Assembly: GCA_902577425.1 (NCBI GenBank) | Contig: CACGZD010000006.1 | Location: forward strand, 1 to 64,000 | DNA length: 64,000 nt | DNA from: an uncultured Alphaproteobacteria bacterium | GTDB lineage: Bacteria > Pseudomonadota > Alphaproteobacteria > HIMB59 > GCA-002718135 | Direction of reading: 5' to 3' | Shown here: one piece after another, positions 5,554-44,410 of the stretch | How positions within the stretch are numbered: the stretch's first letter is position 1 | Layout of the letters: each line of letters opens with the position of its first letter | Notes under the pieces: model-generated | Seen by the model: the letters and a program-made list of their open reading frames with translations, nothing else | Databases searched by the model: none | Told to the model about the DNA's origin: nothing | Program-made: the position numbers and the translations under genes

Positions 5554-5566
5554 GCGATATATTAAT

Positions 5567-5621
5567 CGTTCATCTCATAAGTTGTATGAGACGGAAGTAG
5601 GCTAGGAGACCGAAGGAACGC
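5567..5621 (+). ncRNA. glnA-class glutamine riboswitch in the amtB leader
   Basis: A three-way junction is visible. P1 pairs CGTTC (5567-5571) with GAACG (5616-5620). P2 pairs TCTCATA (5573-5579) with TATGAGA (5585-5591). A short third arm closes GG 5600-5601 with CC 5610-5611. The conserved joining strings I know for glnA RNAs, ACGGAAGTAGG (5591-5601) and CGAAGGAACGC (5611-5621), are both present. glnA-class RNAs bind L-glutamine and control nitrogen genes in cyanobacteria and marine bacteria, and an ammonium transporter is an expected target. A competing hairpin, AAGGAA 5613-5618 with TTCCTT 5623-5628, would break P1 and may be part of the switch. Confidence 0.9.
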
Positions 5622-5702
5622 ATTCCTTTATGTTTTCAAATTACTTTCATTACTTTTTATAGATTAACGATTGTAAAGATAAACTCAAAAAGAGGGGGTC
5701 TA

Positions 5703-6983
5703 ATGACGTTAGAAGAATTAAATGTCTTTGTCACCACACAAGCTAATGTAGGTATGGAAGCTTATTATTGGTGGTGTACAGGACTGATGATTATTATTCA
5801 CGTTGGGTTCTTAATGTATGAAGTAGGGGCAACAAGAATGAAAAATGCCGTTTCTTCAGGTGTGAAAAATTTATTAGCATTTGCATTTATGATTCCAACA
5901 TTTTGGCTATTTGGCTGGTGGATCTATCTAGCATTTCCTGGAGGATTTGTTCCTATAGATTTAGAAGGATATGGAGTTCCATGGAATGTTTCAATGGGAC
6001 CTATGCTAAGTGATCAAGCGACTGGTGTATTTTGGGCAGCTTTTACGCTGTTTGCATGTACAACAGCTTCAATTTTTTCTGGAGCTGTAATAGAAAGAAT
6101 TAGAATAAGTGCTTTTGTATTTTTAGCAGTTATTCTTGGGTCAGTAGTATGGATCTTAGCTGCTTCTTGGGGATGGCATCCTGATGGATGGCTAGTAACA
6201 GGATTTGGTTTTCATGATGTAGCAGCTGCAGGTTGTGTACACACAGTTGCAGGATTATTTGCATTTGGTGTATTACTAAACCTTGGTCCAAGAGTAGGAA
6301 AATATAATGATGATGGATCGGCAAACGACTTAGCAGGTCATAGCTTAGTACTATCATTTGTTGGCTTATTAACTCTAATTGTAGGATTCTTTGGATTCTT
6401 AGGAGCTTGTTTAATTTGGGCAGGATCTGATTTTGGAGGTTGGATAAATATTTATGGTGCTCCAGCTACATTATCATCTTTTGCTTTTAATACTTTAATG
6501 GGTCTAGCAGGTGGTATGATAGGTGCCTTCTGGTGGAGTAAAGGTAATCCATTTTGGATGATGTCAGGAGGATTAGCAGGTATATTTATATGTGCTGGTG
6601 GTCTTGATATTTGGTACCCTGGATTTGCTTTTATTCTTGGAACAATTGCTGGTTGTGTAATTATTCCTGCTAATAATTGGCTTCACAATACTTTTAAAAT
6701 TGATGACTGTGTAGGTGCAGTATCAATTCACGGTGTGTGTGGTATCCTAGGTATGTTGGCTGTAGGTCTCTTTGCTTCTGGTTTTCCAGCTGCAGGAGAT
6801 ATACCTCCATCAAACTTAATGGGACAAATTGTTGGTATCATCACAATGGCGTTAACTGGATTTGTACCTGGCTATGTTATTTCTTTAATTATGAAAATGG
6901 CTGGCTGGTTACGTGTTCCAGATCACGTTCAAGAAGCGGGTATTGACAAAACAGAGCTTGAGCTTCAAGCTTATAACCAGTAA
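5703..6983 (+). CDS. amtB: Ammonium transporter
   Basis: 426 residues with eleven predicted membrane helices and no separate signal peptide. It carries ammonium or ammonia across the inner membrane. The two pore histidines lie in AGCVHTVAGL and VSIHGVCGILG. The Phe-gate region resembles CTTASIFSGAVIERIR. The ATG has a very strong AGAGGGGG ribosome-binding site 5 bases upstream. The leader carries a glutamine riboswitch, so high glutamine is expected to turn expression down. A 57-residue membrane protein follows after 20 bases, then a strong terminator. No glnK gene follows within the window, unlike many amtB operons. Confidence 0.95.
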   Translation: MTLEELNVFVTTQANVGMEAYYWWCTGLMIIIHVGFLMYEVGATRMKNAVSSGVKNLLAFAFMIPTFWLFGWWIYLAFPGGFVPIDLEGYGVPWNVSMGPMLSDQATGVFWAAFTLFACTTASIFSGAVIERIRISAFVFLAVILGSVVWILAASWGWHPDGWLVTGFGFHDVAAAGCVHTVAGLFAFGVLLNLGPRVGKYNDDGSANDLAGHSLVLSFVGLLTLIVGFFGFLGACLIWAGSDFGGWINIYGAPATLSSFAFNTLMGLAGGMIGAFWWSKGNPFWMMSGGLAGIFICAGGLDIWYPGFAFILGTIAGCVIIPANNWLHNTFKIDDCVGAVSIHGVCGILGMLAVGLFASGFPAAGDIPPSNLMGQIVGIITMALTGFVPGYVISLIMKMAGWLRVPDHVQEAGIDKTELELQAYNQ

Positions 6984-21734: not shown

Positions 21735-22946
21735 ATGAAATTTACCTTTATTAAAACAACACTTATTGCTTTTGTAGTGTCTCTGTTTAGCTCATTTCAT
21801 TTAATGGCTACAGACATGCATGGTGTTATGTGTGGTGGTGAAATTCGACCTGCAGACCAAGCTGTAGTAGATCAATTTATGGCAGATAATCCTGGTGTTA
21901 ATGTTACTATGGAAGCTGTTCCTTGGGGAACTTGCCAAGATAAAGTTATAAACTTGGCCATAGCAGGAGATCCTGTGAGTTTTTCTTATGTAGGATCAAG
22001 AACTCTAAAAGGTTTAGCTGAAAATGGACATATTGTTGCAGTTAATATTCCTGATTCACAAAAGAAAATGTATCAACCAGGTATATTAGACACAGTATCT
22101 TACAAAGGGGAAATTTGGGGATACCCTCATGCTTTTTCTACAAAAGCCCTTTTTATGAATTGTGGTATTCTTGAACAAGCTGGTTTAGCTTGCAATGGCC
22201 CACAGTCTTGGGATGAACTTTATGCAATGGCTGAAACTATTAAAAATAATACAGGAATTGCAGGTATTGGTTTAACTGGAAAAGATTTTGATAATACTAT
22301 GCATCAATTTTTGAACTATCTTTATAGTAATGGGGGACAAGTAATTGATCCTGATACTAATGAAATAACTTTAGATAGTCCGAATACTGTTGAAACTTTA
22401 GAGTTTTATGCAAAGTTAGCAAATGTTTCTCAAGAAGGACCATTAGCTTGGGAGCGTTCCCAGTTAACTGAACTATTTAATGATGAAAAAATAGCTATGT
22501 ATATCAATGGTCCTTGGGGAGCTGGGCAACACAAAGAAGAACTTAGTGTGAAAACTGTAAGAATTCCTGCTGGTCCAAATGGTAGCCAAGGAACACTTTT
22601 AATCACTGATAGTGTTGCAGTCTTTAATAATACTGGTCATGAAGATATGGCAAGTGCACTTGTGGCTCAGCTTACTTCAGGTGATGCTCAATATGATTTA
22701 GATACTAGTTGGGGTCTAACTCCAATTATGCAATATCCTCAAATTGGTAAGGTAGCGCCATACAATACAGATTATTGGATGATGTTTATTGATGCCATTG
22801 CAGATGGAGGTCCTGAGCCTCTATTTGTAGATTATAAAGCTTTTCAATCAGTTATGAATTCTATGATTCAAGGAGCAATTCTTGGAGAAGGAGATGCGGC
22901 TGATTTAGTTGCTGAAGCAGCTGAAGAATTGGAAGAGTATAAATAG
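21735..22946 (+). CDS. Sugar ABC transporter substrate-binding protein, family 1
   Basis: 403 residues with a signal peptide (basic MKFTFIKT, hydrophobic core, cleavage near LMA-TD) and the two-lobed periplasmic fold of extracellular solute-binding family 1 (DKVINLAIAGDPVSFSYVGS, GYPHAFSTKALFMNCGIL, INGPWGAG). The mature protein has several cysteines (CGG, TCQ, NCG, CNG). A strong GGAGGAAAT ribosome-binding site precedes the ATG. It captures the ligand for the permeases just upstream. The binding protein at the end of the operon with its own terminator suggests separate high expression. Confidence 0.93.
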   Translation: MKFTFIKTTLIAFVVSLFSSFHLMATDMHGVMCGGEIRPADQAVVDQFMADNPGVNVTMEAVPWGTCQDKVINLAIAGDPVSFSYVGSRTLKGLAENGHIVAVNIPDSQKKMYQPGILDTVSYKGEIWGYPHAFSTKALFMNCGILEQAGLACNGPQSWDELYAMAETIKNNTGIAGIGLTGKDFDNTMHQFLNYLYSNGGQVIDPDTNEITLDSPNTVETLEFYAKLANVSQEGPLAWERSQLTELFNDEKIAMYINGPWGAGQHKEELSVKTVRIPAGPNGSQGTLLITDSVAVFNNTGHEDMASALVAQLTSGDAQYDLDTSWGLTPIMQYPQIGKVAPYNTDYWMMFIDAIADGGPEPLFVDYKAFQSVMNSMIQGAILGEGDAADLVAEAAEELEEYK

Positions 22947-35112: not shown

Positions 35113-35706
35113 ATGAAATTTTTATTTGATTTAGGTGGTGTATTTTTTGATTGGGATCCTAAATTTTTTTTTAAAAAAATAATTTCTGACAATGATGAAA
35201 TGGATTTTTTTTTAACAAAAGTTTGCAATGATGAATGGAATTTAGCCCAAGACTCAGGGCGCAGCATTGAAGATGGAGAAAAAGATATTATTAGAAAATT
35301 TCCTCAATATGAAAATCTTATCAGGCAATACTATCCAAATCATAGAAAAATGATTAAAGGAATTTTTCAGTCTTCAGTTAATATTTTAATAAAATTAAAA
35401 CAAGATAATTATGAATGTTTCGTTCTATCTAACTGGTCTTCTGAAACATTTATAGATATACCTAAAGAATTCAAATTTATGGAAAATTTTGATGGTTTGT
35501 TGATTTCTGGAGAAGATAAGCTTGTTAAACCTGATCCTAAAATTTATTTATTAGCTATAGATAGATTTAATTTAGATCCACAAAATACTGTATTTATTGA
35601 TGATAAGTTAGTAAATATTGAAGCTGCTAAAAAACTAGGATTTAAAACAATACATTTGACTAATCCTAATACAATTGAAGCTGAGATAAATAAGTTTATA
35701 AAATAA
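35113..35706 (+). CDS. HAD-family hydrolase, YihX-like sugar-1-phosphate phosphatase
   Basis: 197 residues. Motif I is FDLGGVFFDWDP, where Gly replaces the usual second Asp neighbour as in YihX-type proteins. Motif II is VLSNWSSET, Lys in KLVKPDPKIY and terminal acids in VFIDDKLVNIEAA. It probably hydrolyses alpha-D-glucose-1-phosphate or a related phosphate. Adjacent to the alpha-glucoside operon but on the opposite strand. Confidence 0.85.
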   Translation: MKFLFDLGGVFFDWDPKFFFKKIISDNDEMDFFLTKVCNDEWNLAQDSGRSIEDGEKDIIRKFPQYENLIRQYYPNHRKMIKGIFQSSVNILIKLKQDNYECFVLSNWSSETFIDIPKEFKFMENFDGLLISGEDKLVKPDPKIYLLAIDRFNLDPQNTVFIDDKLVNIEAAKKLGFKTIHLTNPNTIEAEINKFIK

Positions 35707-35755
35707 AATAAAGTCATTAAATATAATTTAAATTTAATTTTATTAAAAAAATCAT

Positions 35756-35817
35756 TGAGCAGAGAAGTTTGCCAGAGGAATACTTCTAGGAGGAAATAAT
35801 ATGAAACTCTCTGCTCA
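35756..35817 (-). terminator. Large hairpin with T-run: possible minus-strand terminator or sRNA
   Basis: On the plus strand TGAGCAGAGAAGTTT (35756-35770) pairs with AAACTCTCTGCTCA (35804-35817) through 14 pairs and one bulge. Read on the minus strand the stem is followed after 4 bases by seven T (complement of 35745-35751). The loop contains TTTCCTCCT. An alternative pairing AGAAGT 35763-35768 with ACTTCT 35782-35787 exists. It may simply end the aglK transcript. Confidence 0.5.
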
Positions 35818-35872
35818 TAATAATAATATAACCAAAACGTTTTGGAGTAATAAAATAGGAACGAATCGGTAA
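35801..35872 (+). CDS. Possible 23-codon leader or relic reading frame
   Basis: A textbook TAGGAGG site precedes ATG 35801, which opens MKLSAHNNNITKTFWSNKI and ends at TAA 35872. The first codons form one arm of the large hairpin, and the frame runs through the LacI-type palindrome. No gene follows on this strand. It could be a decayed start of a lost gene, a leader peptide, or coincidence on the antisense side of a terminator. Confidence 0.25.
   Translation: MKLSAHNNNITKTFWSNKIGTNR
35832..35845. promoter_or_regulatory. Second LacI-type operator, perfect palindrome
   Basis: CCAAAACGTTTTGG, a perfect 14-base palindrome with central CG typical of LacI-family operators. It matches the operator at 41921-41934 except for one base. 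It lies beyond the 3' end of the aglK gene, 6 kb from the regulator. Confidence 0.7.
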
Positions 35873-35912
35873 TATTTATAAATTATTAATGATTAATAAA
35901 TATACCGATTCG
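35862..35912. repeat. Long inverted repeat downstream of aglK
   Basis: CGAATCGGT (35862-35870) pairs with ACCGATTCG (35904-35912). After a one-base bulge, ATATTTAT (35872-35879) pairs with ATAAATAT (35896-35903). That gives 17 pairs with a 16-base loop. No T-run follows on either strand, so it may protect the mRNA 3' end rather than terminate. Confidence 0.8.
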
Positions 35913-35929
35913 ATTAATTATTGTTATTA

Positions 35930-37009
35930 TTATTTAAAAGCTTGGTTGTTACTATCAAATAATTGACAACGTGAAGCTGTGAATCCAACTTTTACAGTAT
36001 CGCCAACCTTAATATTAGAATCGCCTTCAGTTTCTACAACGAGAGGTTCGCCATCTTTTTCCAAATATAGAAATGTACCAGATCCAAGTTTTTCAACTAC
36101 AAAAACTTTACTTTCCCAACTTGAATCACCATCTTGATTAACCAATAAGTGTTCAGGTCTAATGCCCAATGTAACTGAGTCACCATTTGATGAGTTTGAA
36201 GATGTTTTTGGTATTGTGATTTTGGATGTTCCAAAAATATCTATTTCTGTAGAGTTATTCGTAGAACTTAAGATTTTAGAATCAATAAAATTCATTTTTG
36301 GCGATCCAATAAAGCCTCCTACAAAAAGATTTGATGGATTGCTATACAATTCCATAGGAGAGCCTTTTTGTGATACTATACCTTCATCTAAAACAACTAT
36401 ATCATCTGCTAATGTCATTGCCTCAGTTTGATCGTGTGTTACATAAATCATTGTTGCGTTAAGTTGATCATGTAATTTAGCTAACTCAACACGCATTTGA
36501 ACTCGAAGAGCTGCATCCAGATTTGATAAAGGCTCATCGAATAAGAAAACTTTTGGTTTTCTGGTTATAGCTCTACCAATGGCTACACGTTGTCTTTGAC
36601 CTCCAGAAAGTTGCTTTGGTTTTCTTTGAAGATAATCTTCAATTTGTAAAATCCTTGCTGCTTCTTGCACTCTTTCATTTATTTCATCTTTTGATCTTTT
36701 TTCTAATTTTAACCCAAAAGCCATATTATCAAAAACTGTCATATGTGGGTACAAGGCATAAGACTGAAATACCATTGCAATATTTCTCTGTTTAGGAGGA
36801 AGATCATTAACGACTTCTCCATCAATAGAAATTGTCCCAGAATTAATATCTTCTAATCCTGCAATCATTCTTAACATCGTTGATTTTCCACACCCACTTG
36901 GGCCAACCAAAACTGTAAAAGATTGACTTTTTATATCAAGAGAAATGTCTTTAATAACATGAACATCTCCATAATATTTATTTATAGTATTTATATTTAT
37001 ATCTGCCAC
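35930..37009 (-). CDS. aglK: ABC transporter ATPase, AglK/UgpC/MsmK type
   Basis: 359 residues from a GTG at 37009 preceded by AAGGAGGATGAA. An upstream TTG would add nine atypical residues. Walker A GPSGCGKST, signature LSGGQRQRVAIGRA, Walker B VFLFDEPLSNLDA and the switch His in YVTHDQTEAM are all present. A C-terminal TOBE domain (about 235-359, LGIRPEHLL) marks the carbohydrate-importer family. It is the last gene of the AglEFG-like operon. It is the only ATPase in the window able to serve the amino-sugar permeases at 19893-21630, so sharing is plausible. Confidence 0.93.
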   Translation of the reverse strand: MADININTINKYYGDVHVIKDISLDIKSQSFTVLVGPSGCGKSTMLRMIAGLEDINSGTISIDGEVVNDLPPKQRNIAMVFQSYALYPHMTVFDNMAFGLKLEKRSKDEINERVQEAARILQIEDYLQRKPKQLSGGQRQRVAIGRAITRKPKVFLFDEPLSNLDAALRVQMRVELAKLHDQLNATMIYVTHDQTEAMTLADDIVVLDEGIVSQKGSPMELYSNPSNLFVGGFIGSPKMNFIDSKILSSTNNSTEIDIFGTSKITIPKTSSNSSNGDSVTLGIRPEHLLVNQDGDSSWESKVFVVEKLGSGTFLYLEKDGEPLVVETEGDSNIKVGDTVKVGFTASRCQLFDSNNQAFK

Positions 37010-37073
37010 TTCATCCTCCTTTGAGCGATCTTTCAAGCAGATTTAGTTTATTCCAATATTGATTTAGAAGCAA

Positions 37074-38387
37074 CTAAATTAAATAACCAAGGTGTTGATA
37101 TTGTTTTTCTATCATATGATTTAAAAGCTTTTCTGCATTATTTACATTATTAACTACTGGATCAGCTAAAAGGGCTTTTAGAGCTTTGTCTTTAGATTTT
37201 TCCAGAATTGCTTCAGCTGTTAATCTCATTACGCTTACTTGACTTAGTAACAAAGTAGAAAAATCAAAAGGATAATTTTCTAATTTAATACCATGAATTC
37301 CTTCTTTATTAATTTTTCCAGGTACTTCCACTACAATATTTTCAGGCAAATATTCTATATATCCTTTATTAGGTAAATTTACTGCAGCTTCCTCATAATT
37401 TAAATCTTGAATTATTCCCTCAATAATTTTTACTACTCGTTCTTTTGGTTTTTTTTGAAGATCAAAATAATCTTGGTATGATTCTTCATTCTCATAAAAT
37501 GTAAGACATTTTTCTCTATATTTTGTATAAAACTCTAAAATAGCTTCATGATCAGCTACACTATACGCCCATTGAATATATTCTCCTAAATGACTATCTG
37601 TTGTAATTGGAAGATAATTGTATCTATTAAATAATTCAAAAAAAACTCCTCTTTCTGCACCAGGCTTTTGTCCCCAAATTTCATGATCATTTACATAATT
37701 TTTGAAATATTCAGGTCCTTTTTTTCTAATGATTGAATATGCGTCTTTTGCTGTATCTTTAAATTTTGCTTCTGTAAGAATACTTAAATGATTTAATCCT
37801 CCAGCTCTATATTCAATATTTTCAAATGGAGTATTTAAAATATCTGGAAGTTGTCTTTCCATGGATGCTATCTCATGGCAAAGACCTATAAATTTCATTG
37901 AAGGATATTTTGTAGTTATTGTTTGACAAACTCGTTGCATAGGATTTGAATAATTGAAAACATACGCATTTGGACAAATTTTATTAATATCATCACAAAT
38001 TTCAACTATTGGTGGTGTAACTCTTAGAGAATGAAAAAGACCTCCAGGACCCCCATTCTCTCCAAAAACTTGTTTAAAGCCATATTGAAGAGGAACTTTC
38101 CAATCTTGATCCCATAAATCAAATCTTGGTTGTACTTCAATTGATATAATACAAAAATCAGCATTTTTGATAGCGTCTTTTCTTGAGGTGGTTGCTTCTA
38201 TTCTAAAGTTTAAATTTAATTTTTCTTTATATTTCTTTGCTATTAATTCTGTATTTTTTAAAGATTCAGCATTGATATCATGCAGAACAATTGTAGATTT
38301 ATCAAGTATCTTTGATTTAAAAATATCACCTATTGTTCCTAATCCAAAGTTTGTGCTCCCAGCTCCAATCAAAACAATTTTACTCAT
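37074..38387 (-). CDS. Glycoside hydrolase family 4, NAD- and metal-dependent
   Basis: 437 residues with the GH4 Rossmann start SKIVLIGAGSTNFGLG, NYSNPM and the catalytic/metal region CHEI at residues 170-173, with the second metal His at 200 (GGLNH). GH4 enzymes use NAD and Mn2+ in a redox-elimination mechanism. CHEI resembles the CHEV motif of alpha-galacturonidases more than the CHSV of alpha-galactosidases or the CN-type motif of 6-phospho-glycosidases. The importer in the same operon looks like an alpha-glucoside type. The actual substrate is therefore open. Cytoplasmic, between the permeases and aglK. Confidence 0.9.
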   Translation of the reverse strand: MSKIVLIGAGSTNFGLGTIGDIFKSKILDKSTIVLHDINAESLKNTELIAKKYKEKLNLNFRIEATTSRKDAIKNADFCIISIEVQPRFDLWDQDWKVPLQYGFKQVFGENGGPGGLFHSLRVTPPIVEICDDINKICPNAYVFNYSNPMQRVCQTITTKYPSMKFIGLCHEIASMERQLPDILNTPFENIEYRAGGLNHLSILTEAKFKDTAKDAYSIIRKKGPEYFKNYVNDHEIWGQKPGAERGVFFELFNRYNYLPITTDSHLGEYIQWAYSVADHEAILEFYTKYREKCLTFYENEESYQDYFDLQKKPKERVVKIIEGIIQDLNYEEAAVNLPNKGYIEYLPENIVVEVPGKINKEGIHGIKLENYPFDFSTLLLSQVSVMRLTAEAILEKSKDKALKALLADPVVNNVNNAEKLLNHMIEKQYQHLGYLI

Positions 38388-38390
38388 AAT

Positions 38391-39530
38391 TTAACCCTTT
38401 ACTGACCCTGCAACTAAACCTCTAATAAAATATCTTTGTAGTAAAAAAAATATCAAAAGAGGGACTGTCATAGATACAAATGCGCCTGTTGTCAAAATTT
38501 CCCAATTCTCTCCTCTTGATCCCAAAAGCTCTCTTAATTTTGCAGTAATAATTATTTCACTTGGTACTTGATCTAAAAATACTAAACCTACTAATAAATC
38601 ATTCCAAACCCACAAAAATTGAAGAATAAATACAGAAGCAAAAGCTGGAATCGATAAAGGTAAAATAATTTTTTTAAATATATCGTAATGATTGGCTCCA
38701 TCAACTCTTGCAGCCTCTATCATTTCATGAGGTAAAGATTTAATAAAATTTCTTAAGAGAAAAGTAGTTGAAGCTAAGCCAAAACCAGTATGCGCCATCC
38801 ATACACCGGGATAAGATTTGGAACTAATATTAAATAAATTACTAATATCATTATAAAGACTTAAAAGAGGAATTAAGGACATTTGTAAGGGCACTACAAG
38901 AGAGGCAATTACAGTAGCTAACAACAAATCTTTACCAAAAAATCTCATCCAAGAAAGAGCATAAGCAAAAAATGAACAAATTATTAATGGTATCACTGTA
39001 GATGGAATTGCCACAGCTAATGTATTAATAAATGCCTGACCAACACCTTCATTTAGCAGAACTTCTTTATAATTATTTAATGTAAATTTTGGAGGACTAC
39101 TAGCTGTTATAAAAACTCTTTTACCTTTTTTATTCTCAAAGGGTATTTGAGATTTCCAAATATAGTCACCAGTTTCACTAATTTCTATTTTACTTCCATC
39201 TTTAAAAATTGCTTCTTCATTGATTAAAAATTCATTTATATTTTTAGAAGTTATTCCAAAACTTTTAATTTTTTTTCCAGTTTTTGTGTTAAATATATTT
39301 CCTTTAATAATATAATTATTATTTTCTTTAAATTGAGATTCATATCCTGCTGTTCTATAAATTTCATTAATTTCAGTAGTAAATAATGATGTCCACCAAC
39401 CACTTGTAGCAAGTAAATCTTTATCTCTAAATGAACTTATTAAAAGTCCAAAGGTTGGAATAATCCAAACTATTACAAAAATTAATAAAATTATTTGTGA
39501 AACAATTGAAGAAAAAAAACTTTTTTTCAT
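38391..39530 (-). CDS. aglG: Alpha-glucoside ABC transporter permease, AglG-like
   Basis: 379 residues. After the first membrane helix (about 10-32) there is a soluble insertion of about 120 residues, predicted periplasmic, then the remaining five helices and the EAA loop IEAARVDGANHYDIFKKIILP. The insertion and length fit AglG of the AglEFGK alpha-glucoside system rather than MalG. It shares one base with the aglF stop and ends 3 bases before the GH4 start. Confidence 0.88.
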   Translation of the reverse strand: MKKSFFSSIVSQIILLIFVIVWIIPTFGLLISSFRDKDLLATSGWWTSLFTTEINEIYRTAGYESQFKENNNYIIKGNIFNTKTGKKIKSFGITSKNINEFLINEEAIFKDGSKIEISETGDYIWKSQIPFENKKGKRVFITASSPPKFTLNNYKEVLLNEGVGQAFINTLAVAIPSTVIPLIICSFFAYALSWMRFFGKDLLLATVIASLVVPLQMSLIPLLSLYNDISNLFNISSKSYPGVWMAHTGFGLASTTFLLRNFIKSLPHEMIEAARVDGANHYDIFKKIILPLSIPAFASVFILQFLWVWNDLLVGLVFLDQVPSEIIITAKLRELLGSRGENWEILTTGAFVSMTVPLLIFFLLQRYFIRGLVAGSVKG

Positions 39531-40513
39531 TATATTTTTTGTTCCTCTTTATGTCTGTATATGTTTAATATCATTATTGGAATAACAGCAATCATTATAA
39601 TTATTGCAAATACACTTCCTCTTCCTGAATCACCGCCACCCCTAAACATCCAGTCGTACATAAGATTAGCTAAGACATCTGTTTGCCACATACCATTTGT
39701 AAGAGCTAAAATTATATCAAAGATTTTCAATACAAGTATTGTGATTATGGTCCATATAACTAATATTGTTTGTTGAAGATAAGGAATAATTATTGAAGTA
39801 AATATTTTTAATTCATTTGCTCCATCAATTCTAGCTGCCTCTAGCATATCTTTTGGAACACCTCTTAAGGCGGCACTAAAAATTACCATAGCTAAACCTG
39901 TTTGTATCCAAATCATCACTGCCATTAAAAAAAGATTGTTCCAAAGTGGAATAGTTAACCAAGCTTGAGGTTCGTATCCAAGAAATACTATAATTGCATT
40001 TAAAAAACCTATTTGTTGATCTCCAGGACCCCTGTAATCATAAACAAATTTCCAAATAACACCAGCACCTACAAATGATATTGCCATAGGCATAAAAATA
40101 AGAGACTTTGCAATTGTTCCCCACCAAAGTTTGTCTGCTAAATTAGCGATAACTAAACCAAAAAAAGTACTTAATGTTGGAACTATTAAAAGCCAGCCAA
40201 GATTATTTAAAATGGCTCTTTTGAATTCGGGGTTTTGTATAGCCCAAATATAATTGCTAATTCCTACAAAATCTCTACCATATTTATCATAAAAGCTCAG
40301 TCTTACAGTTTCAAAAACTGGATATAAAATGAATATTAAGAGAACAATAAAACCTGGCGCTATAAAAATTATTACCCTTATTGACGAGTCATTTATTGAT
40401 TTTTTAGAAGTTTTTTCAGTAAAAAAATCTAATAAAAAATTAGATAAATGAAAGTATGCAACGCATACCAACACTCCAATAAAGATATATACAAATAAAG
40501 AAAAAATAGTCAC
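39530..40513 (-). CDS. aglF: Alpha-glucoside ABC transporter permease, AglF-like
   Basis: 327 residues from a GTG at 40513. It has an additional N-terminal helix (about 3-24) ahead of the usual six, and the EAA loop LEAARIDGANELKIFTSIIIPYL. It pairs with AglG. A hairpin with T-run lies between it and the binding-protein gene, so it is expected to be expressed at a lower level than aglE. Confidence 0.88.
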   Translation of the reverse strand: MTIFSLFVYIFIGVLVCVAYFHLSNFLLDFFTEKTSKKSINDSSIRVIIFIAPGFIVLLIFILYPVFETVRLSFYDKYGRDFVGISNYIWAIQNPEFKRAILNNLGWLLIVPTLSTFFGLVIANLADKLWWGTIAKSLIFMPMAISFVGAGVIWKFVYDYRGPGDQQIGFLNAIIVFLGYEPQAWLTIPLWNNLFLMAVMIWIQTGLAMVIFSAALRGVPKDMLEAARIDGANELKIFTSIIIPYLQQTILVIWTIITILVLKIFDIILALTNGMWQTDVLANLMYDWMFRGGGDSGRGSVFAIIIMIAVIPIMILNIYRHKEEQKI

Positions 40514-40529
40514 AAGAAAATATTATATT

Positions 40530-40565
40530 AAAAAATTAGACGAGCAAGTTAATTGCTCGTCTAAT
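40530..40565 (-). terminator. Partial terminator / mRNA-stabilising hairpin between aglE and aglF
   Basis: ATTAGACGAGCAA (40535-40547) pairs perfectly with TTGCTCGTCTAAT (40553-40565), 13 pairs with loop of 5. On the minus strand it is followed at once by TTTTT. Such elements commonly let binding-protein mRNA accumulate above permease mRNA. Confidence 0.88.
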
Positions 40566-40575
40566 ATAGGAGGTA

Positions 40576-41883
40576 TTATTTTATTGAATCCCAACTTGCT
40601 TGGATTGCATCAGCAACATCTTTTGCAGATTTTCCGTTAGTATAATCTACCATACCAGTCCAGAAACTTCCTGCTCCAATAGCGCCAGGCATTAAGTCTG
40701 ATCCATCAAATCTAAATGTTGTTGCACCAGTTAAGATTTCTCCAAGTTTTCTAAAAGTATCACTTGAATAAGCACTTAAATCAGCATTTTTATTTGGAGT
40801 TAAGAAACCACCTTTTGCCATCCACCATTCATTTGGTTCTGGATGCAGTAAAAATTTCAAAAATTCCATTGTAGCTTGATTTTCATTAGTTGCTGCAAAT
40901 AATGTTCCACCACCAAGTACTGGCTTTCCTAAATCTTTAGTTGAATAAGCAGGAAAATAAAAGAAATCATAATCTACACCAGCTTCCACACCTTCAGGAA
41001 AGAAAGCAGGAATAAAACTTGCTTGACGATGCATCATGCATTCAGCAGGCGATGTAAATAATCCATTTGGAGCATCTCTAAAATCAGTTGTAGCAACAGC
41101 TTTTGAGCCTCCATTGACATATTTGTCATTCAAAGCAAAAGAGCCAAAAAAATCCATAGCTTCTAAAACTCTTGGATCATTAAATGGCATTTCATTTGAT
41201 ACCCACATATCATAGACAGAAGGGTCATGCGTTCTTAGCATTATATCCTCCATCCAATCAGTAGCAGGCCAACCAGTTGCATCTCCTGAACCTAAACCAA
41301 TACACCAAGGTGTATTCCCATCACTAGCCATTTTTTCTGTTAATGCTATAAGATCTTCCATTGTAGTTGGAACTTCATATCCATTGTCTTCAAAATTATC
41401 TGGTGAATACCAAACTAAACTTTTAACATTAACTTTGTAAAAAATTGCATAAAATTGATCATTTCCATTTTCATCTGGATATGTAGCTAAATCAACCCAT
41501 GATTGACCAGCTGCATAATTGTCCATAACTGCTTTTTTAACATCATCACTTAAAGGCCTTAAACCACCAATAGCAGCCATGTTAGCAGCTAAACCTGGTT
41601 GTGGAAATATTGCTATATCTGCTGGACTTCCAGCTTTAATATCAATCACAATTTGTTGTTCAAAACTATCGGAACCACCATATTCAACTGTTGCTCCTGT
41701 AGCCTTTTCAAAAATTGAAGCTATTTCTCTCATATAACCATCTTCTGGAGCTAACCAAGGACCAGAAATTGTAACTTTTTGACCACTTAGATCTGGACCA
41801 CTATATGAGCCTGCAAAAGCACTGGTATTTAAAACAAAAATAGAAGTAACAACTGCAAGAATTAGTTTAATTGTTTTTTTCAT
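40576..41883 (-). CDS. aglE: Alpha-glucoside ABC transporter substrate-binding protein, AglE-like
   Basis: 435 residues from ATG 41883, which has GGAGGG 5 bases upstream; four extra in-frame codons from a TTG are leader. Signal peptide MKKTIKLILAVVTSIFVL with cleavage near AFA-GS. The mature protein has the AglE-like strings GPWLAPEDGYMREIASIF, GSDSFEQQIVIDIKAGSPADIAIFPQPGL and many Trp/Asp residues in the sugar cleft. It captures alpha-glucosides (trehalose-, sucrose- or maltose-like) by family analogy. First gene of the operon, controlled by a promoter that contains a LacI-type operator. Confidence 0.92.
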   Translation of the reverse strand: MKKTIKLILAVVTSIFVLNTSAFAGSYSGPDLSGQKVTISGPWLAPEDGYMREIASIFEKATGATVEYGGSDSFEQQIVIDIKAGSPADIAIFPQPGLAANMAAIGGLRPLSDDVKKAVMDNYAAGQSWVDLATYPDENGNDQFYAIFYKVNVKSLVWYSPDNFEDNGYEVPTTMEDLIALTEKMASDGNTPWCIGLGSGDATGWPATDWMEDIMLRTHDPSVYDMWVSNEMPFNDPRVLEAMDFFGSFALNDKYVNGGSKAVATTDFRDAPNGLFTSPAECMMHRQASFIPAFFPEGVEAGVDYDFFYFPAYSTKDLGKPVLGGGTLFAATNENQATMEFLKFLLHPEPNEWWMAKGGFLTPNKNADLSAYSSDTFRKLGEILTGATTFRFDGSDLMPGAIGAGSFWTGMVDYTNGKSAKDVADAIQASWDSIK

Positions 41884-41912
41884 TCTTCCCTCCAATTATA
41901 AATGTAACCAGC

Positions 41913-41941
41913 ATAATTTACCAAAGCGTTTTGGTTGTCAA
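41913..41941 (-). promoter_or_regulatory. aglE promoter with LacI-type operator in the spacer
   Basis: Read on the minus strand: TTGACA (complement of 41936-41941), a 17-base spacer, then AATTAT (complement of 41913-41918). The spacer contains the near-perfect palindrome CCAAAACGCTTTGG (41921-41934). A repressor bound there would block the promoter directly. The divergent LacI-family gene starts at 42002, so it probably regulates itself too. Confidence 0.82.
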
Positions 41942-42001: not shown

Positions 42002-43024
42002 ATGAATATTAAAATTTTAGCAAAAAAATTGCGGCTTTCAATCACAACTGTTTCTAGAGCTTTAGGAGGTTATTCAGATGTTAGTGAAACTACAAGAAAA
42101 AAAGTAATTAAATATGCTAAAAAATATAAATATTCTCCTAATCCTAATGCAAGTAGTTTAGCTTCAGGTAAATCCAACACCCTTGGTTTTGTTATACCTT
42201 TATATGGACTTAATTCTAATACTTTGAATCAAGCATCTTTTTTTGAATTTATTGCTGGAATGTCTACCAAGATTCATTCTGAAAATATTCAATTTTTTAT
42301 GATGTTTGCAAATAATAAATTGGAAGAAAAAAATGCTTATGAAAAACTAATTAATGTACAAAAAGTAGACAAAATTATTTTGCATAATTTAAAAAAAAAT
42401 GACTCTAGAATAGGAATGTTAAAAAAAAATAAAATTAAATTTGTAGCTTGGGGCAGAACTCAAGGATTGATTGACTACTCATGGGTAGATTTAGACAATG
42501 AAGGAAGTTCTAAATTAATAATGCAATATTTAATTGAAAAAAATCATAAACATATAGCGTATATAAATATTGAAGAAAATTATAATTTTGCCTTTCAAAG
42601 AAAGCAAGGCTATCTTGACTCTCTTAAGAAAAATAAAATTAAATTTAATAAAAATTATTATATTTCTGTAAAACATGAAGATCCTGATCAAAGTTCTGCA
42701 GTCATTCAAAAAATGTTAAACAAAAATTCAAAAATCACAGCTATAATTTGTTCCACTGAATATTCTGCTGTTGGCGCAATCAAGGCATGTAATCAATTAA
42801 ATAAGAAAATTGGTAAGGATATATCTATTATTACTTTTGATGGCCCAGTAGTTGGGACTTTAGCTAACCCATCTTTAACTGCAATTACACATGAAAGAAA
42901 AAATTTAGGCCACAAAGCTATTGAAATTCTGACAGATATGGATAAAGATAATAGAGTTCATACTCATTTAGCTAAGGCGAAAATCATTGAAAGAGGATCT
43001 GTTTGTAAATTAAAGAAAAATTAA
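42002..43024 (+). CDS. LacI-family transcriptional regulator
   Basis: 340 residues. The N-terminal helix-turn-helix is MNIKILAKKLRLSITTVSRAL with hinge SPNPNASSLASGKSNTLGF. The rest is the periplasmic-binding-protein-like sensor domain (VIPLYGLN, ITFDGPVVGTLANPSLTAI). It is divergent from aglE with a LacI-type operator between them, so it is most likely the repressor of the alpha-glucoside operon with the imported sugar as inducer. No strong ribosome-binding site precedes the ATG, consistent with low expression. Confidence 0.92.
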   Translation: MNIKILAKKLRLSITTVSRALGGYSDVSETTRKKVIKYAKKYKYSPNPNASSLASGKSNTLGFVIPLYGLNSNTLNQASFFEFIAGMSTKIHSENIQFFMMFANNKLEEKNAYEKLINVQKVDKIILHNLKKNDSRIGMLKKNKIKFVAWGRTQGLIDYSWVDLDNEGSSKLIMQYLIEKNHKHIAYINIEENYNFAFQRKQGYLDSLKKNKIKFNKNYYISVKHEDPDQSSAVIQKMLNKNSKITAIICSTEYSAVGAIKACNQLNKKIGKDISIITFDGPVVGTLANPSLTAITHERKNLGHKAIEILTDMDKDNRVHTHLAKAKIIERGSVCKLKKN

Positions 43025-43108: not shown

Positions 43109-44410
43109 ATGAAGTTAGTTTTAGTTGGAACCGGTTATGTAGGCCTTGTATCTGGTTCTTGTTTTGCTGAATTTGGATACGAAGTAATTTGTGTTGATAG
43201 TGACGAGTCTAGAATTTTAGAATTAAAAAAAGGTAATTGTCCTTTTTTTGAACCTGGAATGGAAGAGTTATTATCAAAACATAGGGATCAAACTAAACTA
43301 CTTAGTTTTACAACTTCTTTGCCTGAAGCCATGGAAGATGCTGATATAATATTTATTACTGTAGGTACTCCATCTAAAAGATTAGAGGAAGAAGCAGACT
43401 TAAGCGCTGTATGGAATGTTGCAAAAGATATAGCTAACAATATAAAAAAATACTGTTTAGTTGTAACTAAATCAACTGTCCCTGTGGGAACCACTAAAGA
43501 GATTAAAAAAATTATATCAAAAATTGTAACTAAAGAAAATTTTGATGTTGTTTCTAATCCAGAATTTCTTAGAGAGGGGTCAGCTATAAATGATTTTATG
43601 CGTCCAGATCGTATAATCATAGGAACTGATAATGAAAAATCAACAAAAATTATGAAAGAATTATATCGTCCATTATATTTATTAGAAACTCCTATTATTT
43701 CTTCATCTATAGAATCTTCAGAAATAATAAAATATGCCTCTAATAGTTTTTTAGCTACAAAAATTAGTTTTATAAATCAAATTGCGGATTTATGTGAGTC
43801 TATTGGCGCTGATGTCCAGGAGGTAGCTAAAGGAATGGGGATAGATAATCGAATAGGCTCAAAATTTCTTAATGCTGGACCTGGTTTTGGAGGCTCATGC
43901 TTTCCTAAAGATGTTAAAGCTTTTACATCTTCAGCAAAAAAACAAAATATAAATTTGTCAATCTTAGACGCTGTAAATTTATACAATCAAAATCGACCAT
44001 TAGAAATATCAAAAAAAATAATTAATTTAAAAAACTATAATAAAAATTCAAAATTAGCTTTATTGGGATTAAGTTTCAAACCTAATACGGATGATATTCG
44101 TGATTCTACTTCTCTTAAAATTGCACAGTACTTATTTGATCAAGGTATATCAATCAATTGTTATGACCCTGTAAGTAATGATAATGCTATGAATTTATTT
44201 CCTAATTTTAAATATTTTAAAAATGCCTATGAAGCAAGTGAAGCAGTTGATGCAATAATAATAGGTACTGAGTGGAATGAGTTTAGGGCTTTAAATTTTT
44301 TAAAACTAAAGAGCCTTATGAAAAATTTAGTAATTTTTGATTTAAGAAATATCTATAATAAACAAGAACTATCAGATTTAGGATTTGAGTATTATGGAAT
44401 TGGTAAATAA
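43109..44410 (+). CDS. ugd: UDP-glucose/UDP-mannose-type nucleotide-sugar 6-dehydrogenase
   Basis: 433 residues. N-terminal NAD domain VGTGYVGLVSGSCFAEFG, the conserved TVPVGTTKEI and SNPEFLREGSAINDF strings, the catalytic cysteine in GPGFGGSCFPKDV, and the C-terminal domain LLGLSFKPNTDDIRDS. It makes UDP-glucuronate from UDP-glucose for surface polysaccharide. Coupled to the phosphomannomutase gene, which overlaps it by 17 bases. Confidence 0.93.
   Translation: MKLVLVGTGYVGLVSGSCFAEFGYEVICVDSDESRILELKKGNCPFFEPGMEELLSKHRDQTKLLSFTTSLPEAMEDADIIFITVGTPSKRLEEEADLSAVWNVAKDIANNIKKYCLVVTKSTVPVGTTKEIKKIISKIVTKENFDVVSNPEFLREGSAINDFMRPDRIIIGTDNEKSTKIMKELYRPLYLLETPIISSSIESSEIIKYASNSFLATKISFINQIADLCESIGADVQEVAKGMGIDNRIGSKFLNAGPGFGGSCFPKDVKAFTSSAKKQNINLSILDAVNLYNQNRPLEISKKIINLKNYNKNSKLALLGLSFKPNTDDIRDSTSLKIAQYLFDQGISINCYDPVSNDNAMNLFPNFKYFKNAYEASEAVDAIIIGTEWNEFRALNFLKLKSLMKNLVIFDLRNIYNKQELSDLGFEYYGIGK

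Follow-up and report, generated by a model that had tools for sequence, protein, structure and literature searches.

A predicted malK-linked small RNA with an anti-Shine-Dalgarno loop, probably directed at ABC binding-protein mRNAs, in the marine alphaproteobacterial order HIMB59

Transcription regulators are scarce in streamlined marine alphaproteobacteria, and the RNA regulators proposed for these bacteria mostly act in cis. GcvB of enterobacteria acts on the start regions of many ABC binding-protein mRNAs and represses them, as is predicted for the RNA element described here; unlike that element, it is about 200 nt long, Hfq-dependent and GcvA-controlled, with a G/U-rich seed. AbcR1 and AbcR2 of rhizobia are Hfq-binding small RNAs (sRNAs) of 114–121 nt encoded in tandem beside the LysR gene lsrB; of their two anti-Shine-Dalgarno motifs, aSD1 (CUCCUCCC) is in a loop and aSD2 (UUCCCCUC) separates stem-loops, and together with Hfq they repress the mRNAs of binding proteins (PMC8844928). 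Our element is likewise alphaproteobacterial, with one anti-SD motif in a loop and another in unpaired sequence, and the repression of ABC binding-protein mRNAs at the ribosome-binding site (RBS), by which the AbcR RNAs rank nutrients, is predicted here too. Unlike them, it has a predicted length of about 75 nt, lies behind malK with a LacI-type operator in genomes where Hfq was not found, carries a motif that reaches the complement of AUG, and has no match in Rfam; it is a single copy behind malK, not one of tandem copies beside a LysR gene. NfeR1 of Sinorhizobium is 115 nt long, has three identical anti-SD motifs, shows no Hfq interaction and answers to stress and nitrogen, and its validated targets encode periplasmic binding proteins (PMC8844928). 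The predicted Hfq independence and predicted binding-protein targets of our anti-SD element resemble those of NfeR1, and its two unlike motifs and its linkage to a sugar operon set it apart. MalH of Escherichia coli, which arises by degradation of the 3' end of malG and tunes uptake, is also physically tied to a maltose-type ABC operon (PMC8081044), but a separate promoter is predicted for our element and no sequence relation was seen. Structured RNA candidates of Candidatus Pelagibacter ubique were found by comparison in intergenic regions, one of them being a bulged hairpin followed by poly-U; unlike our element, they have the contexts rhtB/proC, pntA, rnhB1 and SAR11_0635/0636, and for none of them is an anti-SD loop or a position behind malK described (PMC2704228). 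In the open-access literature that we searched, no earlier description of this RNA was found, and we regard the element as a new family of RNA that belongs to a class already known, the anti-SD sRNAs directed at binding proteins.

HIMB59, an order also called AEGEAN-169 and formerly SAR11 subclade V, comprises two GTDB families (PMC10734472); its genomes average 1.55 Mb and carry sugar ABC transporters unusual for SAR11 (PMC10308909). The window, i.e., the whole stretch of 64,000 nt analyzed here, comes from the 1.52-Mb genome (31 contigs) of a low-GC marine member. A sugar operon on its minus strand (35930–41895) encodes an SBP_bac_1 binding protein, two permeases, a GH4 glycosidase and a MalK-type ATPase. 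The nearest named relatives of this malK are in the single-cell genome AG-916-I19 (88% identity), where the RNA element is also present, and in Pelagibacteraceae single-cell genomes (77–80%), where it is absent. A HAD-hydrolase gene on the plus strand converges on the spacer behind malK and ends at 35706. On the minus strand, malK is followed in order by hairpin 2, a palindrome, a -10-like box, hairpin 1 and seven T. The first-pass annotation had pointed out the two hairpins, the LacI-type palindrome and the T-run, all of which are present in the spacer. The features of the neighborhood are as follows.

42002–43024, plus strand: LacI-family regulator gene, divergent from the sugar operon
41921–41934, palindromic: second LacI-type operator, in the sugar-operon promoter between its TTGACA and AATTAT
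35930–37036, minus strand: malK-type ATPase gene, constant upstream neighbor of the RNA element
35862–35914, minus strand: hairpin 2, an inverted repeat of about 17 pairs, probable malK-operon terminator
35832–35845, palindromic: LacI-type operator CCAAAACGTTTTGG within the predicted sRNA promoter, at the same site in the genus
35823–35830, minus strand: -10-like box TATATT / TATTAT
35745–35817, minus strand: proposed sRNA gene of about 74 nt from the predicted start (stem base) to the T-run, placed by covariance-model score, -10 box position and T7

A further hairpin, strong and terminator-like (13 pairs followed by T5), lies inside the operon at 40535–40565 (minus strand), between the binding-protein gene and the permease genes, and may tune the ratio of binding protein to permease.

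We think it probable that the element is a LacI-linked, Hfq-independent anti-SD sRNA that silences binding proteins and is made from a promoter of its own immediately downstream of the malK terminator. A trans-acting RNA of about 75 nt would start at the stem base on the minus strand, and the LacI-family protein controlling the sugar operon would also repress this RNA through the operator at 35832–35845; with both under one repressor, the sugar transporter and the sRNA would therefore be produced together when the sugar is present. The hairpin loop would expose CUCCU plus the adjoining AUAUUAUUU stretch and pair with the mRNAs of other ABC solute-binding proteins over SD, spacer and AUG, the best candidates being those for an SBP_bac_5 and an AapJ-like SBP_bac_3 protein; the pairing would block their translation without Hfq. 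Because the loop is complementary to the RBS and start of binding-protein genes, the uptake of rival nutrients would probably be lowered while the sugar is available. Conservation, structure, strand, single copy, linkage to malK, promoter-like and operator sequences and target complementarity come from the computation; transcription, control by LacI, repression and the ranking of nutrients are what we infer. The fuller picture, namely a new sRNA family that sets up a nutrient hierarchy in a streamlined marine lineage without detected Hfq, in which one LacI-controlled signal yields both a sugar ABC transporter and an RNA covering the SD and AUG of competing periplasmic binding proteins, and which in most of its members (g6) takes two exclusive folds, is put forward tentatively, at slightly under an even chance.

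We surveyed 162 genomes of the order, belonging to two families and seven genera. The covariance model finds the element in 88 of them, all in one family and with one copy per genome, at E-values from 1e-10 to 6e-19. When DNA was searched with the spacer, hairpin 1 was recovered at 80–90% identity in most genomes of the family, while for the remaining spacer conservation stops at the genus (close relatives). At all 44 loci examined, the element lies 97–117 nt behind malK on the same strand, and the gene beyond it varies among a HAD hydrolase, a DAO-type oxidoreductase and a glycerol-3-phosphate dehydrogenase; the element travels with malK. The sister family f2 yields no convincing homologue even with relaxed filters (best E 0.026, 26 bits), and a search with strict filters of 385 genomes sampled from the class finds the element in its own family only. 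No Rfam family matches at threshold, and the matches up to E = 10 include no sRNA of this kind. A mobile or repeated element is ruled out by the single copy per genome, and for a phage origin the exact 28-nt loop pattern gave 0 matches in viral contigs. A weak RNA-model match elsewhere in the window (43684–43752, plus strand; 18 bits, E 0.28) is probably due to chance.

For the promoter we compared 24 flanks, non-redundant at 80% identity. A hexamer agreeing with TATAAT at five or six positions ends 6–8 nt before the stem in 19 of the 24, with 8 cases at gap 6 and 9 at gap 7, while in 500 sets of shuffled flanks the highest count at any gap has a mean of 3.8 and is at most 7. The two palindromes of the window, at 35832 and 41921, are one base apart in sequence, and they are the only CG-centered sites with 0–1 mismatch in the genome. 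The operator upstream of the element occurs in 11 of the 24 distinct flanks and is absent in about half. In the window's genus its start, at -29, falls between the -35 and -10 elements, and many g6 genomes have it further out, from about -56, immediately upstream of the -35 region. In the genome G095 (L162), a LacI-type operator lies directly 3' of the element, 5 nt behind it, not upstream. Together with the T-run, the predicted start gives the transcript of about 74 nt, in line with the short minus-strand RNA of 75–90 bases envisaged in the first-pass annotation. The same RNA with the same targets could instead be processed from malK read-through mRNA, as a 3' UTR-derived sRNA of the MalH type. 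The constant distance and strand behind malK would fit such an origin, as would those flanks that have no good -10 box or no operator at all, but a terminator-like hairpin stands between malK and the element, and the TATAAT box is positioned before the stem in most flanks. Hairpin 2 is probably the terminator of the malK operon, and its counterpart in L011 is followed by T6. We judge the read-through origin unlikely, though it is the best of the alternatives.

The element itself consists of the following parts.

35757–35816 (35756–35817 at its widest), minus strand: hairpin 1, 60 nt, with a conserved core of 13 pairs
35804–35816, minus strand: outer stem, 5' arm GAGCAGAGAGTTT, pairing with 35757–35770, with compensatory changes
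35757–35770, minus strand: outer stem, 3' arm, pairing with 35804–35816, with compensatory changes
35788–35803, minus strand: targeting module CATATTATTTCCTCCT, complement of SD-spacer-AUG, nearly invariant in 25 distinct sequences and supported by target ranks
35781–35798, minus strand: inner hairpin TATTTC / GAAGTA, its loop holding CUCCU, supported by RNAalifold and by 97% paired cells
35774–35782, minus strand: second pyrimidine motif TATTCCTCT, conserved, predicting binding-protein targets poorly
35745–35751, minus strand: T7 run after the stem, intrinsic terminator tail

The spacer folds far more stably than its dinucleotide shuffles (z = -5.8 on the minus and -6.6 on the plus strand), none of 200 shuffles being equally low. 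Among the 25 distinct sequences, 97% of the stem's pair cells are standard and 7 of the 19 pairs show two-sided changes, against a shuffled mean of 2.1 and with 0 of 500 shuffles as high; sliding the stem partner out of register lowers the pairing from 97% to 44–63%. In L163 the stem is largely different in sequence and still pairs, and in L037 one pair of the inner hairpin is altered on both sides with the pairing kept. Changes on a single side of the stem give G-U pairs on the minus strand and A-C mismatches with partial loss of the helix on the plus strand, and because the G-U pairs are kept only in the minus-strand reading, the RNA is assigned to the minus strand. The covariance model agrees, scoring the window's element at 84.6 bits on the minus and 21.4 bits on the plus strand.

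The absence of conservation beyond a terminator, which the first-pass annotation had set against an sRNA, is not what the relatives display: across the 25 distinct sequences conservation is higher in the loop than in the stem, and UAUUAUUUCCUCCUA is present in 23 of them. Anti-SD motifs are placed twice, CUCCU in the inner loop and UUCCUC in an internal loop. The element is thus a structured RNA, conserved and standing alone, whose single-stranded seed is conserved as well; these features characterize trans-acting base-pairing sRNAs. A merely conserved terminator, or an mRNA-stabilizing hairpin of the converging genes, that does no regulatory pairing would fit the T7 after the stem in the window, the convergence itself and the terminator-like alternatives in g6 genomes; however, an intrinsic terminator leaves its loop sequence free, and here the variable part is the stem, while a nearly invariant 35-nt loop that is the precise complement of an SD plus AUG is more than a terminator needs, with hairpin 2 already serving malK. 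We consider this account still less likely than read-through processing. The alternatives just mentioned occur in most g6 genomes, where the 3' half of the element has an inverted copy downstream with which it can pair instead (L012, L013, L018 and L131). This fold, at about -30 to -38 kcal/mol, compared with about -16 to -18 kcal/mol for the closed hairpin, ends near a T-run and leaves the 5' targeting segment largely free. In folding models, the longer g6 RNA, of about 110 nt as predicted, would have two mutually exclusive folds, the closed hairpin and the long terminator hairpin; because the changes in the terminator helix are mostly one-sided, with register shifts, the basis for this second fold is its energy rather than covariation.

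Returning to the anti-SD sRNA, we searched for its targets with the module UUUCAUAUUAUUUCCUCCU, the complement of SD, spacer and AUG. Genome-wide, GGAGGAAATAANATG at 0–1 mismatch is found at two true gene starts only, those of the SBP_bac_5 and AapJ-like SBP_bac_3 genes. For the start-region background, the window was combined with 20 further stretches to 464 kb, or about 30% of the genome, holding 421 ORFs; start sites were called in a simple way, and 2 of the 20 stretches were picked for containing the best matches. Contiguous complementarity in the 421 ORFs reaches 18 bases for SBP_bac_5 and 17 for the AapJ-like SBP_bac_3, and all others have 11 or fewer. Ten of the 13 best-pairing starts among the 421 belong to ABC binding-protein genes, of which this sample holds at least 13 (L289 and L293:295 were called as such from family counts and N-termini); with control queries the share is 3/13 for the generic 16S anti-SD and 2/13 for the reversed module. 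This ranking of RBSs, a check proposed in the first-pass annotation, supports its view of a short minus-strand RNA directed at binding-protein mRNAs, as do the conserved copies with compensatory stem, loop, -10 box and common operator. The single target that it had named, GGAGGAAATATG before the binding-protein gene at 21735, does have real complementarity to the loop, but the match is short (10 nt) and moderate, and two other genes match far better. The second pyrimidine motif gives poor ranks for binding-protein starts, and we dropped it as an independent targeting site.

When UUUCCUCCU alone is the query, binding-protein genes make up 8 of the 13 top starts, so the strong SDs of these genes account for part of the enrichment. 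This result, and the likeness of CCUCC to the 16S rRNA 3' end, would also suit a general translation modulator, i.e., an anti-SD mimic for many SDs or a protein or ribosome binding site, with no specific binding-protein targets. The flanking AUAUUAU, however, is conserved and contributes -10.7 kcal/mol over shuffled flanks for each of exactly two genes, both encoding binding proteins; we regard a general modulator as quite improbable, and this part of the module appears to add specificity, most for the top two genes.

The start region of SBP_bac_5 is unchanged in most of the family. In G005, loop and SBP_bac_5 start carry the same altered AAATTAT, a suggestive single case of apparent covariation between the two molecules. 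The SBP_bac_5 orthologue of the sister-family genome G036, where the RNA was not found, has GGGAGGAAAAAAACATG, a weaker match. In sister family f2 (L242 1440–1510, and L243), where the RNA was likewise not found, an SBP_bac_1 start, TTCTTATAGGAGGAAATAATATGA, matches the g6 RNA loop perfectly or nearly so, and the SBP_bac_5 gene is missing from some RNA-bearing genomes. The sugar operon's own binding protein shows a moderate match to the loop, so weak self-repression is possible.

Two readings of the plus strand can be dismissed, a gene for a small peptide and the remnant of a lost gene that the first-pass annotation had suggested: TAGGAGG and ATG are indeed there with mostly conserved letters, being the complement of the loop, but the frames vary in length (1 to 34 codons) and read differently in every lineage, with no relation in sequence, the ATG is lost in L037, L150 and L163, and the stem pairs are broken on that strand.

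35801–35872, plus strand: 23-codon frame starting at this ATG, complement of the loop and not a gene; not conserved

Hfq (PF17209) was found in none of 20 genomes of the order, G000 included, and the control genomes, Caulobacter among them, were positive. The RNA, if it acts by pairing, works without Hfq or with another chaperone; in Pelagibacter, cold-shock proteins have been proposed to shape translation (PMC2864753). If our reading is true, it adds a base-pairing sRNA for bacteria in which Hfq is not detectable, as a further solution beside AbcR, NfeR1 and GcvB, and gives streamlined marine alphaproteobacteria a concrete mechanism, in the form of a trans-acting RNA, for the choice among dissolved nutrients. 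The prediction can be checked directly in existing ocean metatranscriptomes.

Far from the sugar operon, the window also holds a glutamine riboswitch (RF01739, 57.8 bits) at 5565–5624 on the plus strand, about 80 nt upstream of a 426-aa gene at 5703, and its occurrence in the present alphaproteobacterial lineage perhaps deserves attention.
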